IMG/VR virus record: IMGVR_UViG_3300044807_000039
Span: 64,001-128,000 of that record
Strand: one strand, 5' to 3'
DNA from: a virus
DNA length: 64,000 nucleotides
The notes under the pieces were generated by a model. The model saw only the letters and a program-made list of their open reading frames with translations. It did no database searches and was not told where the DNA came from. Below, one piece after another: positions 4,145 through 52,383 of the stretch. How positions within the stretch are numbered: the stretch's first letter is position 1; every line of letters begins with the position of its first letter. The position numbers and the translations under genes were made by a program.

Positions 4145-4543
4145 ATGTCTAAGAACCTTAGTGACATTATGGAATTTGATCACGTGATACGGGTACACGT
4201 TGGCGGCACGATTAGTGAGCCTGCGAAGGTGTATGCGCCGGAAATCTATATTACGTCCGACGTGGACGGCCAAATTAGTGCGGCTGATGACGCGTATATG
4301 ATCGAACGCGTTAAGGCGCAAGGTTGGGAATTGCTTACGGGCTATTCAGGCCAATATGGCTATTCCGGTCCGGTTATGCATCCGTCCGAATCAATCGGGG
4401 GAAGACTGGAAATGGATATTCGCAATACCCCCGGTTACTACGTTGCCCTTGTGGTTGACGATATCGACGAACTGAATACCAGTGACGACGATTACGAAAG
4501 CATCCCGGTTGGTTGGGCAGTAGCCTACCGCGAAACGGTCTAG
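4145..4543 (+). CDS. Hypothetical protein, 132 aa
   Basis: The ATG at 4145 has GGAAAGGGA about eight bases upstream; the in-frame ATG at 4127 lies on the Shine-Dalgarno itself. Acidic soluble protein with a beta-rich first half and DDIDELNTSDDDYE near the end. No recognised domain. Confidence 0.65.
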   Translation: MSKNLSDIMEFDHVIRVHVGGTISEPAKVYAPEIYITSDVDGQISAADDAYMIERVKAQGWELLTGYSGQYGYSGPVMHPSESIGGRLEMDIRNTPGYYVALVVDDIDELNTSDDDYESIPVGWAVAYRETV

Positions 4544-4547
4544 GATC

Positions 4548-4616
4548 GATTCTAAGCGGGTTTTAGCCTAGGGTAGGCATAAGTTGCCACCCTAGGCTTT
4601 AAATCTCCCTAGAATC
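4548..4616 (+). promoter_or_regulatory. Two-tier hairpin leader, type A copy 3
   Basis: Outer pair GATTCTA (4548-4554) with TAGAATC (4610-4616); inner stem GCCTAGGGT (4566-4574) with ACCCTAGGC (4589-4597). The distal part, TAGAATCAAAATGAGAGG, recurs before the gene at 4836 as a second leader element. Confidence 0.6.
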
Positions 4617-4634
4617 AAAATGAGAGGCAATGCC

Positions 4635-4796
4635 ATGTATCGTTGGTTGACCTTGTGGGACGCTGAAAAGTCCGAGCCTGTCGACTTTGTTGTCTACGCG
4701 GACAATAAAGATACGGCCGTAGAGCTGGGTAGAAAAATGGTGCGAATCGTTTACGGTGTTGATCCCGTTCTCTTGAACATTAAAAAGCTCGATTAA
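4635..4796 (+). CDS. Small hypothetical protein, 53 aa
   Basis: An uninterrupted frame from an ATG after GAGAGGCAATGCC to a TAA. The product has strand-helix-strand character (YRWLTLWDAEK, TAVELGRKMVRIVYG). It shares the leader TAGAATCAAAATGAGAGG with its downstream neighbour, which supports it being a real gene. Function unknown. Confidence 0.6.
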   Translation: MYRWLTLWDAEKSEPVDFVVYADNKDTAVELGRKMVRIVYGVDPVLLNIKKLD

Positions 4797-4835
4797 ACGG
4801 ACTGCCTATTAGAATCAAAATGAGAGGGTAGGACA

Positions 4836-5261
4836 ATGCTTTTTTTGCGGGTAGAGCACGGTAAGACCATTGATACCGCAACCGGTATCCACGCTGGCCC
4901 ATACCGTTCGTCATATCACGATGCTTTAAACGAGCAACAAAGCGACGAATTGCATGACATGTCCAGTGTGCACAGCAATCCGTTTACCCATCCCGTTATG
5001 CATTATGAATTCGATTTAGAGTACTTTGCCGCTAAACAATGGTGTTGCGGTTTTATCGGAGCCGAGCAAGCCATACAGTGGTTTGAGGGCTATTTCAAAT
5101 TGCTTGACGAAATAGGTTTCATGCTTAGTGCCTACGATTTAAATAGTGTGCAATTCGCTGAAAAGCAAGCTATTTGTTTGGTGAGTGAATTGAAAAGGGC
5201 GACACCAATTTCGGTCTATCCGTTAGCCCTGCTCAATTCAATTAGCGGGGGTATTAAATAA
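4836..5261 (+). CDS. Hypothetical protein, 141 aa
   Basis: Follows the repeated TAGAATCAAAATGAGAGG leader. It has a His/Ser-rich N-terminal half and a helical C-terminal half with CC and several aromatics (QWCCGFIGAEQAIQWFEGYF). No signal peptide or clear membrane helix. Its shape recalls orphan proteins common in actinobacteriophages, but I cannot name the family. Confidence 0.65.
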   Translation: MLFLRVEHGKTIDTATGIHAGPYRSSYHDALNEQQSDELHDMSSVHSNPFTHPVMHYEFDLEYFAAKQWCCGFIGAEQAIQWFEGYFKLLDEIGFMLSAYDLNSVQFAEKQAICLVSELKRATPISVYPLALLNSISGGIK

Positions 5262-35125: not shown

Positions 35126-35875
35126 ATGGCAAAGGCAACTAACAGAAACGTTATCGTTGGTGCGGCTGCAACCTTTCTTTCTGTAAGTGATTCACTTCAG
35201 AGCGATTGGGATAGTGTAGTCCTTCCGGCGCGTGTACCGGGTACTCCGTACACAAGAACCCTTGAAGCTAATGATGCAGCAAGCGCACCTACTCGTAAGT
35301 GGCGCGGAACTGGTTATACTTCTGGAGGTATTGAGGTTTCCTACAACCCAGACTATGGAGAGGTTGACGTAGATCAACTACTTGATGCTGCAAAGATGTT
35401 CAAGCAGAAGATGAGCGCTACCGTAAAGACTACATTTGCTGAGGCAACTCTAGAAAACTTGCTTGTTGTTTGGGCACAGGGTGGATCTTCACTACGTAAC
35501 GCCGCAGGAAGTGCAACCGCTGTTGACATCGCTGGTAACGTTGTAGACGCAACCAAAGACTTTGAAGGTGTAACCGTTCCAGCCGATGAAGACGTTCTAG
35601 GTCTAGAAGCAGGTTCACTTGGTGTTGAGCCGGTAGAGCGTCAAGTAGTATTCGTTGGACCTTCTCCGCGTGTTGCACCTGGTGGTGTAAACGCTAATAA
35701 GAAGCGTGAGCGAATTTACCACGTTCGTCGTGCACTCAGCGTTGATGCTTCAACCCACTCACTAAAGAAGAATGAGGCGACCTTGTTCCCAGTGAACTTC
35801 CGCCTACTACCTTCCGAGGTATCTGGTGCTGAATATGGTACCATTCGTGATCGTTTGATCCCGGTTTCAGCGTAA
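35126..35875 (+). CDS. Major tail tube protein, 249 aa
   Basis: Very strong AGGAGGTG and its own promoter indicate high expression. Features: a beta-rich N-terminus, TRKWRGTGYTSGGIEVSYNPDYGEVDVDQLLDAAK, and PVNFRLLPSEVSGAEYGTIRDRLI at the end. Location after the terminator and before the chaperone genes, plus a strong terminator directly after, identify the tail tube subunit. Confidence 0.85.
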   Translation: MAKATNRNVIVGAAATFLSVSDSLQSDWDSVVLPARVPGTPYTRTLEANDAASAPTRKWRGTGYTSGGIEVSYNPDYGEVDVDQLLDAAKMFKQKMSATVKTTFAEATLENLLVVWAQGGSSLRNAAGSATAVDIAGNVVDATKDFEGVTVPADEDVLGLEAGSLGVEPVERQVVFVGPSPRVAPGGVNANKKRERIYHVRRALSVDASTHSLKKNEATLFPVNFRLLPSEVSGAEYGTIRDRLIPVSA

Positions 35876-43397: not shown

Positions 43398-46300
43398 TTG
43401 ATTACAATGCCAGGTGCTTTCCAGACTGCTCTACGGCGCGGATACGCGATTGAGGGTAGCTCTATTGTTGTGGCTGAATGGAATTACAACTACCTTTTCG
43501 ATACAACCGTTACAAATCCTCCAGATGATATCGGATGGATTCTCAATAAAGAATACTTCACCACTAAGTCTATTGTTTCTAGTCTTCGTCCTAAGAGCGG
43601 TATTTTTTATGGTATGACCGATGACGCACGCACAAATGGTTCTAATTTGGGTCTTGATGCTAATCGTTACTATTCTATGGATGAAGTTAATCACTATAAG
43701 TATTGGATGTGTCCAACTCCTTCTGCTGGGGATCCCCCGGACGCTGGTGCTGGAGACATTGCAAACTGGGTTTTCGCTGTAGATCGTGGAACGCTCATTG
43801 TAGATTATGGTCAGTTTCTAAACATGAATAAGGTTAGTGTCACCTTCAATCTTGGCCCAATGCCAATTGATTGGAGTATATTTGTATTTGAAGAAACCGC
43901 TAATGCTTGGATGGAAATTGTAAATCCAGCCATTAATGACATTACTGGCGTGGCTGAGATCTGGTGGGATGGTACAAATTGGGTAGAACAACAGAAACTC
44001 AATGAATTGGTTTTTAGGCGTATCTCAAAAATTAAGATTGAGGTTCGTACAATCGATAAGGCTAAGACTCGCTTCCAGGTTGTTGAGATCGCAGGCAAGC
44101 GAGAGATTGATATTACTAATCGCGTTGAGAGCTATAACATCAATTCCTCAATGGACAACCAGGACTTCATTTTCCCGGTTGGTAAAATGTCTGCTAACGA
44201 TGGTGCTATCACTCTTAATAACAACGACCTCAAAATGAATCCAGAAGATCCTACATCGGACTTTTACGGCCTGCTTATCGGTTGGTGCCAATATCGTACC
44301 TACGTAAAATACGATTTAACTCCTTGGGATGGCGCATCAGATTATACTGTTCGCACCGCAACTATGTGGTCAAATGATACTCAACAAATTAACGAATATC
44401 AATATTCAGTTGAGTTGTTTGATATCTTTAAGATCTTACAGATGATTGATTGTCCTGCCTTTTTGGTAGAAGATCAATCCTTAGCTAGAGTAATTGCAAC
44501 CATTCTTGATATGGTGGGATGTGATACCTATAGTTTTGAATTTGCTGACTGGGATATCACTCATACTGTTAAGTATTTCTGGACTGACGGCAAGGAGAAG
44601 GTATTTGACGTGCTTGCCAAATTGGTAGAGTCACATCAAGCCGCTCTTTTTGTTGATGAAGATGGACTTATTCGTCTTCTCACTCGCAATGACATTACAC
44701 CCGTAGCAGGTGAGGAGCCAGTATGGACTTTCCGGGGTGATAATGATGGTCTGGACATTCCAGATATTTCCAAGCTAAGTAAGAAGTACAGTCTACAAAT
44801 CAATAAGCTTAATATTAAATATACTAAACGCCAAGCAAAGGTTGATGATCTAGACATCACCCAGCAGCCGCTTACAAGTACTGTTTGGGAGTCATCTGAC
44901 CCTATTGTTGTTCGTGCTGCCCCATTGATGCGTAATCTAGGACCTGTCATGACTCCTGGAGCACCCGACCCCGCTGACGTCTGGATTCCATCCAACCAAG
45001 CAGAAACCTGGCCTTATAAAGGAAAGGTTAATATCAATGGTGAGCTTATTGAATATAACGGAAAAGGTTATGCGTATTATAATCACAGCACTGGTACCCC
45101 AGTGTACGCCGAAGTACCAGTGTTTACTGATGAAGATCGAAAGGCATTTGATCAGGCTACCTATAATAGCTACACCCAAAGCGGTGTAATCGGTGGCGTA
45201 AGTACTAATCCAACCAAGCAGAATGGGTATACTGGTAGATTAATTATTTCTAAGCGTGATGCGGATGGGACTGGAGAAGCACAATCCCATTTTATTACAC
45301 AGAGCGGCGGCTGGCAGACAAACGACTTCTGGTTGCAAAAAGCCGGAATGCCCTGGACTTATCCAAACCATTGGGTTACTCCTGGAGGAAATGTCAACAT
45401 TCCAGAGCACCAAAGGGATTGGGTTAATAAGCTTGATTGGACCGAAACTCAGGCAAGAACAACTATCGCAAATAGTATTGCTACTATTAATAATACTGGT
45501 CCTAGTGGAGTTGCCGATAGGGATTCCCATGCAACGATCATGATTAAAGATCAGCCGGATACCGAGTACCGTGAGATTGGCGCTAGATTACGCTTGCGCG
45601 GCGGAACCATGGGAAGGGCTATTATTCCTTTCTACATGACCAACGTTGATGGATATAAGAATGAGGTAGCTCCTTTGGCTTGGGCATTTAATATGACCAG
45701 ATGCTACGTTCTCAATATAAATGCGACTGAATACTCCGATAACGTTAATAGAGGACGTCAGGAAATTTCGATTGATTATAAGAACCGAGATTCCATTGTT
45801 CAGGTACCAACAGCGGGACAGGGAGGGAATGGTGGAAATATCAAGATTGACTTTGATAAATGGTATGATATTGAAATCATCTTTAGGGACGGTTCTGGAG
45901 AGATTCTAGAAGGTGGTGGTACCTTTGGTCCACGTTCAGCTATTGAAGTATTTGTTGATGGTGCTTATATGGATACTTGGTATCCAGAAGGTGACGCAAA
46001 CATTCGCCCGACCTCTCTGATTGGTTTTGGAGCAAGAGACAAGTCTATTGTCGATTTTGAATATATGTATGGAACTACTACTACCCCAAAGGGTCGCATT
46101 AGATATACTGACGACGACGAATATGATGCCTTCACTTTGACTCTGCCTCCAGGCACGAATGTTACTCAAACTATTCCATGGCCCGTGGGCCACGACTGGA
46201 TGGGTGATGGTGCATTCGGTTTTTCAACTTGGGGTACAGCCGCCACCATTCATCAGCTAGAAATGCAGGTATTCACCCAGACGCGCAGTTTGAATGTTGC

Positions 46301-47204
46301 TGGAGCAGCCGGTCTAGTGGTCAAGCCAGATCAAAGACTGCAATATATGGTATTAGATACATTACCGGACGTTGGTCTAGTTAAGTTTAGATATACAGCG
46401 GTCAATCCACTATCAGTAATATATGAATACTCAAGAAGTTCTGCCTTCCCGTACGGTATTGATAACGAGCCGACACCTCCACCAATGACCTATTATGATA
46501 TTTTGAAGGGCGGATATGTATCTACTAAGGTAGATGAGGTATTCTTTACTCCACAGAAATATTCCGGAAGCGATTATCTTTCAAGTAGTGTGACTACTCC
46601 AGTTTTCATGGGGTATTTCTTTGATGACTTTGGCTCAATTGTTCATGAGGTGCGAGATATAAGCGTAGATTATGATGCAGCTCCAGCAAAGGGCGTATCC
46701 ATCTATTCGTCTAATCCGAGAGTTAAAATCATTGGACATAAGTATAATCCAATGCGCGGAGATTTTACATTGGTTAACACCTCGCACCGCGATGAAATTG
46801 TCAGCGGAACGGAACAGATTGATGAATCTAACAGCATCGATCAAGCTCTTATGCTTTATGGATATGTCTTGGAGGATAAGGGAGAAGAAATTGAGACTGT
46901 GACAAATCCGCTTAGTGTTCTTCGCCATGGATTCGTTGCACAAGATCTAGATGCAACTTGGATCTTTACCAAGGAAGAGGCAAAGTCTCTTGGAGAATGG
47001 GTTACCTCTCATTGGGGAGAAGCAATGGATACCCTTACCATGGAGACGTTTTGTAGCACCTTTATTCAAATAGGTGATAAGGTCAGCATCTACTATCCCA
47101 ATGCTCATATTAATGCGGAATGGACCTTTGTGGTTACTGATAAGCAATTAGATATGGGTAGTCAAGGACTGTCGACCACTATAACTGTACGTAGAGTTAG
47201 GTAG
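43398..47204 (+). CDS. Large baseplate/tail-tip protein, 1268 aa
   Basis: Starts at a TTG six bases after GAGGAGG; an ATG at 43407 is less well spaced. The first third matches phage tail-tip proteins (LRRGYAIEGSS, VEIAGKREIDITNRVES, SIVHEV later). Residues about 715-895 form a concanavalin/LamG-like sandwich. Residues about 903-1015 carry the same beta module as the genes at 24536 and 25042 (TLTLPPGT, ATIHQLEM, KFRYTAVNPLSVIYE). Residues 1160-1268 close with a tail-hub-type beta domain. Likely central hub with receptor-binding insertions. Confidence 0.7.
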   Translation: MITMPGAFQTALRRGYAIEGSSIVVAEWNYNYLFDTTVTNPPDDIGWILNKEYFTTKSIVSSLRPKSGIFYGMTDDARTNGSNLGLDANRYYSMDEVNHYKYWMCPTPSAGDPPDAGAGDIANWVFAVDRGTLIVDYGQFLNMNKVSVTFNLGPMPIDWSIFVFEETANAWMEIVNPAINDITGVAEIWWDGTNWVEQQKLNELVFRRISKIKIEVRTIDKAKTRFQVVEIAGKREIDITNRVESYNINSSMDNQDFIFPVGKMSANDGAITLNNNDLKMNPEDPTSDFYGLLIGWCQYRTYVKYDLTPWDGASDYTVRTATMWSNDTQQINEYQYSVELFDIFKILQMIDCPAFLVEDQSLARVIATILDMVGCDTYSFEFADWDITHTVKYFWTDGKEKVFDVLAKLVESHQAALFVDEDGLIRLLTRNDITPVAGEEPVWTFRGDNDGLDIPDISKLSKKYSLQINKLNIKYTKRQAKVDDLDITQQPLTSTVWESSDPIVVRAAPLMRNLGPVMTPGAPDPADVWIPSNQAETWPYKGKVNINGELIEYNGKGYAYYNHSTGTPVYAEVPVFTDEDRKAFDQATYNSYTQSGVIGGVSTNPTKQNGYTGRLIISKRDADGTGEAQSHFITQSGGWQTNDFWLQKAGMPWTYPNHWVTPGGNVNIPEHQRDWVNKLDWTETQARTTIANSIATINNTGPSGVADRDSHATIMIKDQPDTEYREIGARLRLRGGTMGRAIIPFYMTNVDGYKNEVAPLAWAFNMTRCYVLNINATEYSDNVNRGRQEISIDYKNRDSIVQVPTAGQGGNGGNIKIDFDKWYDIEIIFRDGSGEILEGGGTFGPRSAIEVFVDGAYMDTWYPEGDANIRPTSLIGFGARDKSIVDFEYMYGTTTTPKGRIRYTDDDEYDAFTLTLPPGTNVTQTIPWPVGHDWMGDGAFGFSTWGTAATIHQLEMQVFTQTRSLNVAGAAGLVVKPDQRLQYMVLDTLPDVGLVKFRYTAVNPLSVIYEYSRSSAFPYGIDNEPTPPPMTYYDILKGGYVSTKVDEVFFTPQKYSGSDYLSSSVTTPVFMGYFFDDFGSIVHEVRDISVDYDAAPAKGVSIYSSNPRVKIIGHKYNPMRGDFTLVNTSHRDEIVSGTEQIDESNSIDQALMLYGYVLEDKGEEIETVTNPLSVLRHGFVAQDLDATWIFTKEEAKSLGEWVTSHWGEAMDTLTMETFCSTFIQIGDKVSIYYPNAHINAEWTFVVTDKQLDMGSQGLSTTITVRRVR

Positions 47205-47205
47205 C

Positions 47206-47234
47206 TAGACATGCGGTAGTCGTTTTGCTATAAT
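47206..47234 (+). promoter_or_regulatory. Strong promoter, leaderless
   Basis: TAGACA (47206-47211), a 17-base spacer, TATAAT (47229-47234) with TTGC before it. The ATG at 47242 is one base from the expected +1. Confidence 0.75.
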
Positions 47235-47241
47235 CAAACTA

Positions 47242-47628
47242 ATGAGTCAGATACGTGAAAGTCAAATTATTCCCTCACGTGAGTTGGAGCAGAATCCATA
47301 TGTTTCTCCACCACGTGATCTAGCACTAAACACTGTGCAGAGTAATGGCCAAACGCCATCCAAAGCAAATACCAGTGTGCCGATTGATACTACTCCGCGT
47401 GGAGAAGATATCAGTCAGGTCGTTAATCCCGGTGGAATCGACTATGGTATTGGACATAATGATGCGGTTCAACCTCCTTCTACTCCACATATTATTAGTG
47501 TAAAGCAACAAATTGTTAATATGCATGATGATGGAACGGTAACCATTGATCTCATTTTGGTTCTTGAGGATATCGTGGGCTGTACCGAATATGACATAAG
47601 GGTGGGCAAGGATGCAGGGAACCTATAA
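47242..47628 (+). CDS. Tail protein with a partial FN3 end, 128 aa
   Basis: Leaderless ATG at 47242. Residues 1-75 are Pro/Ser/Asn-rich and probably disordered. Residues 80-120 (TPHIISVKQQIVNMHDDGTVTIDL...CTEYDIRVGK) look like the first half of a fibronectin type III domain, cut short after its C strand. The missing half appears at the start of the gene at 48493. Overlaps the next gene by 17 bases. Confidence 0.65.
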   Translation: MSQIRESQIIPSRELEQNPYVSPPRDLALNTVQSNGQTPSKANTSVPIDTTPRGEDISQVVNPGGIDYGIGHNDAVQPPSTPHIISVKQQIVNMHDDGTVTIDLILVLEDIVGCTEYDIRVGKDAGNL

Positions 47629-48493
47629 AATTAGCAGCAAGCACGGTGTGTTTGTGGCTAAAAACATAATTACGGATGCTGGTAGAGCCAGCATCCTTAA
47701 TGCTATTTCTGGTAAATCTACTGGATTCGCTTCATCCCTGGTTGCGGGAATAGGTACTACAGCTGCCACAACAGCTGATGTTGAGCTTCAATACGCAGTT
47801 GGTGGAAATGATATAAACGCCATTATAACCGATCTTGTAAACGAAAAGATTTATTACAAAGCCACCCTTCCAGCTAATGATAACTATAGTATTTATGAAT
47901 TGGGCTGCTTCTCAACCAATTTTACTGCCGCACAAAATTCAAATGGCGCGGGAAATATTGCATTGGTAGCTTTCGGTAGTAGTACCGGATGGCTCGATAT
48001 TGTTGGCACATCGGCAATCAGCTCGGTAAATAACAGGGTTGGAGTCGACTCTATTCAGTATACAAGCTTCAGCTCGGCAAAAGGCTATATGCTCTTTAAT
48101 TATGATTTGTCTTCATTGGCTTTAAATGCTACCTTTGATTTGGCATACTACACTAACGCGGTAACTGATCTCATTGTGCGATTCAAGTTTGATGACGATA
48201 ATTACTTCGAAGCTAACACTTGGTCCGTATCTAATGGATATAATATCTCTAAGATACCCGTAAGTGCATTTACTGCAACTGGTGTACCTAGCTGGAATGA
48301 TTTGCGTATTCTAGAAATAGAGGCAACTGGTACAGCTGCGACTCTGTCATTGGATTCTTTGCGCTACACGATTCCAGTTGTTTCTGAGGCAATTGACTCT
48401 AGCTTACTATCTAGAGTTGTTTTGACAACCCCACAACAAAAATTAGCTGGGGTCTCAATGGACGTTGAATACATGTTGGAGCTAAATATATAA
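47612..48493 (+). CDS. Tail/receptor-associated protein, 293 aa (probable insertion)
   Basis: Starts inside the end of the previous gene and ends one base into the next ATG (TAATG). N-terminal part resembles phage tail-fibre collar regions (ITDAGRASILNAISG...). Residues about 130-265 form a carbohydrate-binding-module-like sandwich (SSAKGYMLFNYDLSSLALN, NDLRILEIEATG, ATLSLDSLRYTI). It separates two halves of an FN3 domain, so it seems to have been inserted into an older gene. Confidence 0.65.
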   Translation: MQGTYKISSKHGVFVAKNIITDAGRASILNAISGKSTGFASSLVAGIGTTAATTADVELQYAVGGNDINAIITDLVNEKIYYKATLPANDNYSIYELGCFSTNFTAAQNSNGAGNIALVAFGSSTGWLDIVGTSAISSVNNRVGVDSIQYTSFSSAKGYMLFNYDLSSLALNATFDLAYYTNAVTDLIVRFKFDDDNYFEANTWSVSNGYNISKIPVSAFTATGVPSWNDLRILEIEATGTAATLSLDSLRYTIPVVSEAIDSSLLSRVVLTTPQQKLAGVSMDVEYMLELNI

Positions 48494-51400
48494 TGGAGAT
48501 TTTGGTAAAAGATCTACTTCCGGGAACGAAGTATATCCTTCAGGCAAGAGCTAAGGCACCAAGCGGAATAACCTCTCCTTGGTCTAATACGTTTAGAGTT
48601 CTTACCGAAAGCGATACAGTTGCGCCGATGCCGGTTACTGATTTAACTTGGGTTGTCAGCACCAGTAGCTTTACTGGAACTTGGACAAAGCCAACATTAG
48701 ATTCAAATGGTAAGTCTCTTAAGGACTTCAACGGCTATGAGCTTACTCTTACATCAGGTGCAGTTTCAAAGAAATTCATTTGTATGCAGGAGCGCTTTAC
48801 GCTGACCTTTGAGGAAAACGTAGCAACCTTTGGTACTCCAGGTCCAATAATTAATATCGTAGTTAAGTCTAGAGATATCGTTGGGAATCTTTCAACTCCG
48901 GTTACGGCAACCGCCACTAATCCAATTCCAGCCAACCTTACAAACTTAACAGCGACAGGAATTCCATTGGCAATATCTTTGTCTTGGGATGCTACCGTAG
49001 AAGACGACTTTAAGTGCTACGAAGTGCATACTTCCACTTCCCCCATATTCACTCCGGTTGCAGGAAACCTAGTGACTAGAACCACTTCAAATTCATTTGT
49101 ATTTCCAGCTACCGATATCATCGCACACTACTTCAAGGTTAGACAAGTTGATGTATTTAATCAACCATGTCCTAGTTACCTTCTTGCAAGTGCGACAGCT
49201 CTTAACACAACCGAATTGAATACAACTCCTCCGAACGCGCCCACTGCTGTTACAGTGGCAACCGTCCCGGATGCCAATGGCTCTTCCTCTACTATTAATG
49301 TTTCTTGGACTGCTTCCGCATCAACGAATCTGGCTGGCTATGTAGTTAGATTTAGTCCCGACGAAGTAAGCTGGCAATATATTAACGTTCCGAGCAATAA
49401 AACGAATGTTAAAATTACTGGCCTTCCTCCTGCAACTAACTATTACGTTGCTGTAGCTTCAATTAGTTTTATGAGTAGCTATAGTTTATTCGTAAATGCT
49501 AGCGTGGGTGGATATCCAATTGCTACAGCTGTTGACACTGTAGCTCCATCTACTCCTGCTATTCCCACTGTTTCGTTTAATACACAGATGGTTCAGGTCT
49601 CTCATAGCTTGGCTAAGTCCGGCGGCGGAAATCTAGAGGCTGATGTTAGGTATTTGGAGGTCCATAGCTCAATAACCACTGGATTTACTGCATCATCCTC
49701 GACTTTGATAGGTACATTGGATTGCCCTGCTCAGGGTGTTACTGTGGTTGGAAACTTCCCCGCACCCGTAACAGATAGCATCAGTAATATGTATTGGCGT
49801 GTAATTGCTGTAGACTATGCTGGAAATAAGTCTGCACAATCATTTCAAGCAACTGGATTGCCTGGACTTATTTCAGGCACCAATATTGCTAATGCTACGA
49901 TTACTGATGCTAAAATTGGTAGCCTGTCGGCAACAAAATTAGTTGCTGGTACTGCCTTCATTAACGATCTTAGCGTTAGATCTGCTTTAACCTTGGACGC
50001 TGCGACTGGTTATATCAAGTCTACAAACTTTGATATTCCAACTCAAACTGGTTGGCGTTTGGACCAGAATGGTTTGGTGATTTATAGCGGTTCAATTATG
50101 GCCAAATCGCTTATGCTACAGAATGGTCCAAACATTGCACCAGCTGTATTTGCTGACTTCGAATTTAATACCGATTACTACCACGATGTTGCAAACGCAC
50201 CAAATTCATTGCAGCTTACTGCCACAAGCGGTTTGCTAATGGCCACCCAGTTCACTGGACAAAAGGTGGGCAAGCAGGCAATGCGTGTTTACAACACTTC
50301 AATTACCGGCGCCACCATCCATCAATTGCATTTTGCGACGGGAGGCCAAACAGCTACCGGAGTAAATGTTGATGTTAATCCTGGTGATTATATCTATTCA
50401 CTATGGGCTAAAAAGAATGGAGCAGTTGATCAGAATATCAAGCTTGCCCTTTACACTGATACAGGAGTTGCGATAGCATCTTCCAATATTCTTATTACTA
50501 GTACTACTATGACCCAATATAGTGCGGTACTCACTGTACCTTCTGGTGTGGTAAAGGCAAAAATGTATATGGAGCTGACTGCGGTGACAACTGGCTATGA
50601 TATAGTAATAGATGCACTACAGCTAGAACCAAAACTTACTGCACAGACTCTTCCATCTGCGTGGAAGCCTCCTTCTACCACAGTAATCGATGGTGGATCG
50701 ATCATTACCGGCTCTATTAGATCAAGCGCGGCTAGTGCTACAGTTCCGGGGCAACCAGCTTGGTCAATTAATACTGCTGGCAATATGCAGATCGGTGATG
50801 CGCTTATTCGTGGAAAGCTTATTGTGGGTGCGGTCAATGAGACTGTAAATATTGTTGCGCCTACATACAGTTCATTTGAGGATGCAGCAGCGACTTATTA
50901 CAATGTGAGTACAAACGTACCAGCAGCAGCTAAATTTAATGTGCCGATTGGTGCTACTCAGTTTAAGATCATTCAACAGACCACTGGAAGCCCTCCACAG
51001 GGTGCAAATGCTTTGCGTATGTTCGGAACTGGATTCACAGCGGCTTCTACACCTGCAATAATCTTTTCTGCGGGAGCCACTCCAAATATTACTGTAGTTC
51101 CTGGTCAGACTTATATCCTATCTGCGTGGGTGAAGACTAACGACATCACCAAAAACCAGACCTTTACTATGGGATTTTGGACGGCTTCGCAGGGATATGT
51201 ACACGCAATTCCCTTGGGTTATGTTCCTACTGCAACTTGGACGAGAGTATACGGAACAGTGGTTTCAACCCAGGACAAGGTAGCATTGTTTACCTCAATA
51301 GTATTAGGTCCTTCCGAAACCGTCATGGACGTATCTATTGATGGTGTTCAGTTTGAGGCTCCACCAGTAGGTGTAACCACTCCATCAGCCTGGCAGCTTG

Positions 51401-52383
51401 GTCTGTCCGGCGGTAGTGCAGTGCAATCAACCAACTACGTAGCGGGTTCAAAGGGTTGGGTAATTAACTCAGATGGTACCGTAGAATTTAATGCGGCTAC
51501 AATTCGAGGTAACTTGGTTGTTACCGGTACAGCTGGTAACATTAGAACCAACCTAAATGGATTTTATCCAACCTTGTTTTTTAATAGTACGGACGGAAGT
51601 TATTCTTATATCAATGCCGCTGCTGGTTCTCCATCGACCAAAGCTCAAATTGGAATAAATAGTGCTTCTTATGTCAATGGCGCCTCCCATACCATTAGAC
51701 CAAGAATGTGGATGCCAGATCAAATTGGTATTGAACTAGTAGATGAAACAGCTGGAATCTTAATTGGCGGCGGAGTTTCCTTAACTGATGTACAAGCAAT
51801 CCTAAGAAATAGAAATTCTTCTGGAGTCGAAGACGCATCATATGTGGCATATTCTGGACAAACCTTTATTGAGGCATCCAGTAATTACATTGACGCAAAA
51901 ACAGGGATAACTAATATTGAGGCTTGGGATGCAGGTCAGACTACTAGTCGTGGGTATTTCCGTGTAAAGCAGGACGGCTTATCTTTCCACGGGGCAGCCA
52001 CACCGTCTACACTCAATTGGAATGAATACTGGTTCGCAACTGGCTACTTTAGATCTGGATCATATCCAGATTGGATCAATATTCCGTTTGGTAATGGATG
52101 GAATAGTACTTCAATTCCTACTCTACAGTGTAGGCTAGACGCAAATGGTCGTGTTTGGTTCCGAGGACAAGCAAAGGGTGGTACGATTGGTGCAGGTCCA
52201 TTTGTTATCGGTACAGTTCCGGTTAACTTCCGACCAGCACAAACAGCAAACTTTTGTTGCGCTTCGGATTCATCACCAGACAATAGGTTCCAGGTGAATG
52301 TTACTGGAGATATTTACGCCTGGAATATTCAATTTGGAAACAGTCCCATTTATTTTGATAACGCCAGCTACAGCATGAATTAA
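48493..52383 (+). CDS. FN3-rich tail fibre with tandem CBM modules, 1296 aa
   Basis: Begins with half an FN3 domain (LLPGTKYILQARAKAPSG, SPWSNTFRVLTES), then about four FN3 or Ig-like domains to residue 455. A beta-helix-like joint follows (GTNIANATITDAKIGSLSATKLVAG). Two tandem carbohydrate-binding-module-like domains at about 545-735 and 790-980 both end in LQLEP- or VQFEAP-type strands followed by PSAW. The C-terminal region is a beta knob. This is the main receptor-binding fibre candidate. Confidence 0.75.
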   Translation: MEILVKDLLPGTKYILQARAKAPSGITSPWSNTFRVLTESDTVAPMPVTDLTWVVSTSSFTGTWTKPTLDSNGKSLKDFNGYELTLTSGAVSKKFICMQERFTLTFEENVATFGTPGPIINIVVKSRDIVGNLSTPVTATATNPIPANLTNLTATGIPLAISLSWDATVEDDFKCYEVHTSTSPIFTPVAGNLVTRTTSNSFVFPATDIIAHYFKVRQVDVFNQPCPSYLLASATALNTTELNTTPPNAPTAVTVATVPDANGSSSTINVSWTASASTNLAGYVVRFSPDEVSWQYINVPSNKTNVKITGLPPATNYYVAVASISFMSSYSLFVNASVGGYPIATAVDTVAPSTPAIPTVSFNTQMVQVSHSLAKSGGGNLEADVRYLEVHSSITTGFTASSSTLIGTLDCPAQGVTVVGNFPAPVTDSISNMYWRVIAVDYAGNKSAQSFQATGLPGLISGTNIANATITDAKIGSLSATKLVAGTAFINDLSVRSALTLDAATGYIKSTNFDIPTQTGWRLDQNGLVIYSGSIMAKSLMLQNGPNIAPAVFADFEFNTDYYHDVANAPNSLQLTATSGLLMATQFTGQKVGKQAMRVYNTSITGATIHQLHFATGGQTATGVNVDVNPGDYIYSLWAKKNGAVDQNIKLALYTDTGVAIASSNILITSTTMTQYSAVLTVPSGVVKAKMYMELTAVTTGYDIVIDALQLEPKLTAQTLPSAWKPPSTTVIDGGSIITGSIRSSAASATVPGQPAWSINTAGNMQIGDALIRGKLIVGAVNETVNIVAPTYSSFEDAAATYYNVSTNVPAAAKFNVPIGATQFKIIQQTTGSPPQGANALRMFGTGFTAASTPAIIFSAGATPNITVVPGQTYILSAWVKTNDITKNQTFTMGFWTASQGYVHAIPLGYVPTATWTRVYGTVVSTQDKVALFTSIVLGPSETVMDVSIDGVQFEAPPVGVTTPSAWQLGLSGGSAVQSTNYVAGSKGWVINSDGTVEFNAATIRGNLVVTGTAGNIRTNLNGFYPTLFFNSTDGSYSYINAAAGSPSTKAQIGINSASYVNGASHTIRPRMWMPDQIGIELVDETAGILIGGGVSLTDVQAILRNRNSSGVEDASYVAYSGQTFIEASSNYIDAKTGITNIEAWDAGQTTSRGYFRVKQDGLSFHGAATPSTLNWNEYWFATGYFRSGSYPDWINIPFGNGWNSTSIPTLQCRLDANGRVWFRGQAKGGTIGAGPFVIGTVPVNFRPAQTANFCCASDSSPDNRFQVNVTGDIYAWNIQFGNSPIYFDNASYSMN

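Follow-up and report, generated by a model that had tools for sequence, protein, structure and literature searches.

An FN3 domain probably shared between two tail proteins whose genes flank a third in actinophages

Gene splitting in phages is known mainly from the scars that homing endonucleases leave in genes for enzymes. In phage lambda, hub and FN3 regions lie in one chain. Genes in pieces have been described in T4-like phages, among them the Aeh1 nrdA gene split by mobE, gene 43 of phage 25 and the T4 topoisomerase gene 60 with mobA, and the split enzymes reassemble (PMC2988022). Complementation between FN3 fragments was engineered by Dutta et al. 2005 (as cited in PMC11666773) and in the split monobody DAM21. 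Pieces of an engineered FN3 domain cut in the CD loop refold when mixed and bind their target, with lowered stability (PMC11666773). For mycobacteriophage baseplates, passages of two papers describe a BppU with a CBM and a central fibre protein (PMC13252515, PMC13033339). In the open-licence literature searched, an FN3 domain split by nature is nowhere reported from phage tails.

The stretch of DNA analysed here (the window, 64,000 nucleotides) comprises bases 64001-128000 of a 132-kb record of an uncultured virus. Its tail region carries, in order, a tape-measure gene, a 137-aa gene, the gene of a minor tail protein of 1268 aa (phrog_10359) and the three genes that we call A, B and C. The original prediction held that a third gene lies between two fragments of an FN3-bearing fibre gene and overlaps both. 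Such a gene was found, sharing 17 nt with A and 1 nt with C, and the open reading frames were as claimed; the start given for the feature, 47480, proved to be that of the A half only, and the genes span 47242-52383. The features, all on the plus strand, are as follows.

43398-47204, + strand: minor tail protein, 1268 aa (phrog_10359), upstream of A; putative baseplate hub from gene order
47206-47234, + strand: strong promoter-like site TAGACA-17-TATAAT, 11/12 matches; it stops 7 nt short of the ATG of A
47242-47628, + strand: gene A, 128 aa (phrog_11696 family), with a disordered stretch of about 75 residues ahead of the predicted FN3 strands A, B and C
47482-47613, + strand: part of gene A that codes for strands A-B-C, the putative N-terminal half of the split FN3; family profile 71.7 bits, and joined profile
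47612-47628, + strand: A/B overlap of 17 nt, ending GGGAACCTATAA; site of an HNH gene in one relative (L002)
47612-48493, + strand: gene B, 293 aa, 882 bp including the stop codon; phrog_9983 tail protein
48491-48495, + strand: B/C stop/start overlap TAATG, 1 nt shared; ATGA, TAATG or TAAATG junctions in relatives
48493-48624, + strand: start of gene C, coding for strands E-F-G, the C-terminal half of the split FN3; tyrosine corner LLPGTKY and PWS motif
48493-52383, + strand: gene C, 1296-aa fibre protein with more FN3 repeats and PF09327 Phage_Tail_Tip

The C-terminal sequence of A is ...TPHIISVKQQIVNMHDDGTVTIDLILVLEDIVGCTEYDIRVGKDAGNL and the N-terminal sequence of C is MEILVKDLLPGTKYILQARAKAPSGITSPWSNTFRVLTES. 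Gene C aligned from its first residue with the phrog_11445 minor tail protein (1.6e-184, protein 1-781 to profile 1-770). Elsewhere in the tail region, positions 35126-35875 of the window encode an Ig-domain protein (phrog_2175). No tRNA or tmRNA genes were found in positions 1-64000 of the window, which is this half of the genome; dozens of such genes are described for relatives of clusters BE1/BE2 (PMC5764925, PMC13191466).

The arrangement resembles the T4-like genes in pieces in that two coding pieces of what would be one protein enclose another gene and would have to reassemble, that overlapping stop and start codons suggest translational coupling, and that an endonuclease gene (HNH) occupies the same seam in one relative. 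It differs in that the T4-like intruder is a homing endonuclease, whereas the middle gene here encodes a structural tail protein; in that the T4-like splits are sporadic, with unsplit relatives known, whereas this one is universal in its group; and in that the T4-like target is an enzyme, whereas the cut here passes through a single small domain. As in the engineered FN3, whose pieces assemble into a working domain, the cut falls between strands C and D/E, but the split described here is natural, with a strand D that is reduced or missing and with both pieces being parts of larger virion proteins. FN3 repeats and Phage_Tail_Tip are features that gene C has in common with the lambda gpJ-type central tail fibre (phrog_31, PF09327, PF24489); unlike in gpJ, the hub-like gene is separate from A, B and C, and these from one another. 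The mycobacteriophage baseplates, as described in the passages of PMC13252515 and PMC13033339 that were searched, likewise bring together a hub, a central fibre and accessory proteins that bear a CBM in the tails of actinophages, and those passages mention no split FN3; homology of B to BppU is not claimed.

The split was found in every relative detected. We analysed 84 loci, which were redundant between searches and represent 41 distinct A/C pairs, followed by six further loci (Circinus L084, L085-L087, L090 and L091), of which Circinus and L091 were new and some others repeat earlier contigs. The A and C halves lay in separate open reading frames with B between them in 84/84 loci, 41/41 distinct pairs and 6/6 further loci; together these came from Streptomyces Stanwilliamsviridae, Rhodococcus phages and soil contigs. 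When 31 loci were fetched by C alone, blind to A and B, both A and B were present in all 31. The hub gene matched 132 phage records (127 Streptomyces, 5 Rhodococcus), gene C matched 132 and gene B 128; more loci came from scans of IMG/VR. The Rhodococcus phages Francesca and Dorin, missed by the B search, do carry B, and the other two records missed are, from the host tally, probably Patelgo and Circinus, both of which carry B. The seam itself was constant, more so than chance would allow: C started 9 or 10 residues ahead of the tyrosine-corner P in 41/41 pairs, and A ended 3-8 residues past the strand-C arginine, NiceHouse and its sister reading 0 there only since a later arginine was counted.

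The C half can be solidly assigned as FN3-like from its sequence. The N-terminus of C matched Pfam fn3 at positions 52-80 of 84, the last third of the domain, with 14.5 bits in the window and 19-22 bits in relatives. It carries the tyrosine corner and the E-F-G strand order, with DLxPGxxY followed by SxWS at a fixed position in 41/41 pairs and a few degenerate corners. The original prediction took the end of A and the start of C for complementary FN3 halves, a reading that was supported, and proposed aligning the joined proteins with fibre proteins of related phages. A profile of the joined ends from 7 phages aligned with the prolactin receptor FN3 (E 7e-7) across the seam with normal spacing, strand C running straight into strand E with no residues missing, and a profile of 16 members had Tie2 as its best match (E 7e-8). 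Gene A ends just past FN3 strand C and gene C begins at strand E. The joined family profile reached solved FN3 domains from strand C onward, not from strand A.

By itself the A half gave no significant match in Pfam, PDB sequences or PDB folds, and its identity as FN3 strands therefore rests on complementarity and register with the C half, from which, together with conservation, we infer it. AlphaFold predicted for the A chain alone about 75 disordered residues followed by strands at 84-94 and 100-108, with pLDDT 79-90 over residues 81-120; strands A and B form in this model, and strand C is ordered but unpaired. A fold search with the model against the PDB returned nothing significant.

These findings make it probable that A and C share one FN3 domain, reconstituted between two chains, with B at the joint. 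Strands A, B and C would be contributed by the last 48 residues of A, and strands E, F and G by the first 41 of C. Both sheets would then receive strands from each half (A-B with E; C with F-G), leaving neither half with a closed core of its own, and the halves are expected to dock and reconstitute the domain. Docking would join A to the long FN3 fibre C, and the disordered N-terminal arm of A would be left free to bind the hub or B. By analogy with the FN3 engineered in two pieces at the CD loop, reconstitution of one FN3 by A and C is the most likely outcome. Whether the domain is in addition an obligate two-protein FN3, kept through the history of the group as a non-covalent clasp between adaptor and fibre that fixes a CBM-bearing adhesin at the joint, we regard as evenly balanced. 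If this is true, fragment complementation would be a lasting building principle in tails, with the split fixed in many uncultured phages and in the records of about 130 isolated ones, and the engineered split FN3 would have its natural equivalent in this locus. It would also let the joining of hub and fibre in large actinophages be tested. Annotation gene by gene would miss shared domains, and A homologues are annotated as hypothetical in most records.

Gene B matched the phrog_9983 tail protein over its full length (6.2e-41, profile 1-273 of 273), and 25/25 members tested matched that profile too. In the AlphaFold model of B (pLDDT 89, pTM 0.84), residues 1-115 and 256-293 form an outer tail-protein domain in which a CBM-like sandwich (approximately 116-255) is nested. 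Foldseek placed the sandwich with CBM16, CBM11 and CBM30 (probability 1.00, target TM approximately 0.5-0.6), and the predicted structure has the CBM beta-sandwich fold. Since the predicted fold carries this sandwich, a role for B in receptor binding, as a sugar-binding adhesin, is plausible. B would be made between A and C from the same message via the overlapping stop and start codons, and it would probably sit at the A/C joint and bind sugar there. Other uncultured tailed phages have structural relatives of B over its whole length. A nested insertion is also present within B itself, where the CBM-like sandwich interrupts the outer domain and the last 38 residues make up the second half of that domain.

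The two halves might instead descend from one ancestral FN3 and now be unpaired, the strands of A lying on B or the hub and the truncated FN3 of C being capped in some other way. A does adjoin B and the hub gene, the single-chain model leaves strand C of A unpaired, and B carries an extra N-terminal hairpin in the group of the window and in Loccivirinae. The A half is nevertheless retained in Boydwoodruffvirinae and Rhodococcus phages, whose B is without that hairpin, and the spacing of the joined halves is that of an intact FN3, which separate partners need not preserve. We therefore consider the loss of pairing unlikely.

A second alternative is that the end of A is an independent small beta motif that only looks complementary, and that C merely starts with a shortened FN3. 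This would fit the lack of a database match for the A half alone, and also the scores against PF00041, in which the C half reached 14-22 bits and the joined A and C sequences likewise stayed below the cut-off of 25, with little gain over the C half alone. When alignments of the halves were compared by hhalign with an intact FN3 domain of the same fibres, however, the score was 47.2 for the joined halves, against 41.8 for the C half and 14.9 for the A half. The A half was best placed on the B-C strand region, which complements the C half, and its register did not change when it was joined. This agreement of strand register, the constant seam, the joint conservation of both halves and the joined matches to cytokine-receptor FN3 domains, which begin within the A part, make an independent motif very improbable.

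In the favoured reading A and C are two separately made tail proteins. That A is joined to C, or A, B and C to one another, in one chain by frameshifting, bypassing or intron splicing is the least credible reading: the genes overlap or abut and A and C are in the same frame in the window, but the A-to-C frame relation takes all three values among relatives and the frame of the B-C junction varies too, which argues against programmed fusion and led us to reject a frameshift or bypass, we know of no bypass as large as 860 bases, and an intron was rejected as no Rfam family matched above chance.

The three genes are probably expressed as one transcript. An exact TATAAT lay 6-8 nt ahead of the ATG of A in 17/23 loci, and in 21/23 when one mismatch was allowed; such sites were not enriched elsewhere in the window. 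A TATAAT at this distance suggests that the A-B-C message begins with the ATG of A or close to it, and a leaderless transcript is likely on this pattern. Translation of A, B and C may be coupled through the overlapping stop and start codons.

The split is ancient and fixed, and is not a recent break. Its identical arrangement in every detectable relative indicates that it predates the divergence of the phage lineages of Streptomyces and of Rhodococcus. Strong purifying selection acts on both halves: dN/dS was approximately 0.02-0.2 after the offset pair L014/L015 was discarded, with synonymous sites approaching saturation between the most distant pairs. For several pairs, conservation was far higher in both halves than in the 100 residues of C that follow. 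Conservation and purifying selection together rule out a recent insertion or gene decay.

The claim that B was inserted into a fibre gene stood in part: a third tail gene does lie between the halves, both of which remained open, but no particular insertion event can be assigned to this virus, the arrangement being universal. Scans for unsplit relatives used C, B and joined queries against viral and genome contigs. No continuous A-C gene and no relative without B was found in 50,697 phage records, IMG/VR and species genomes, the latter two scans being pattern-limited, and an unsplit gene was seen in 0/84 loci and 0/6 further loci. A tblastn search of phages with the joined query gave no record outside the group. 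Locus L089, considered as an unsplit relative, carries an unrelated FN3. Relatives that lack B and still have two genes with the same ends, which the original prediction named as evidence against insertion, were sought as well, and none was found. With neither an unsplit nor a B-less relative at hand, the entry of B into a once-continuous fibre gene stands as a conjecture. The middle gene is a tail protein rather than a mobile element. A foreign origin of B was rejected on base composition, GC and GC3 being equal to those of its neighbours, and only short chance repeats flank it.

One relative offers a model for such an event. In IMGVR 3300028380_000035 (recovered as L002, L017 and L049) an HNH endonuclease gene (PF14279, PF01844) lies exactly at the A/B seam, at 4344-4931 of L002, with both neighbouring genes intact and with 12-bp near-copies, GGCAACCTTTAA and GGGAACCTATAA, at its flanks. 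The corresponding site in L048 is empty, without the HNH gene. The A/B seam can thus take in a gene without breaking either neighbour, and this case is a plausible route for the arrival of B, not proof of it.

Two further variations were seen around the split. In L012 and L013 the 100 residues that follow residue 44 of C differ far more than the halves (pN approximately 0.5, possibly in part an unaligned gap), and this divergence right behind the split FN3 suggests recombination or fast change. In L063/L065 (ORF 4330-4998) the frame of the A homologue extends approximately 90-100 codons further upstream, and a start codon exists at the usual place.
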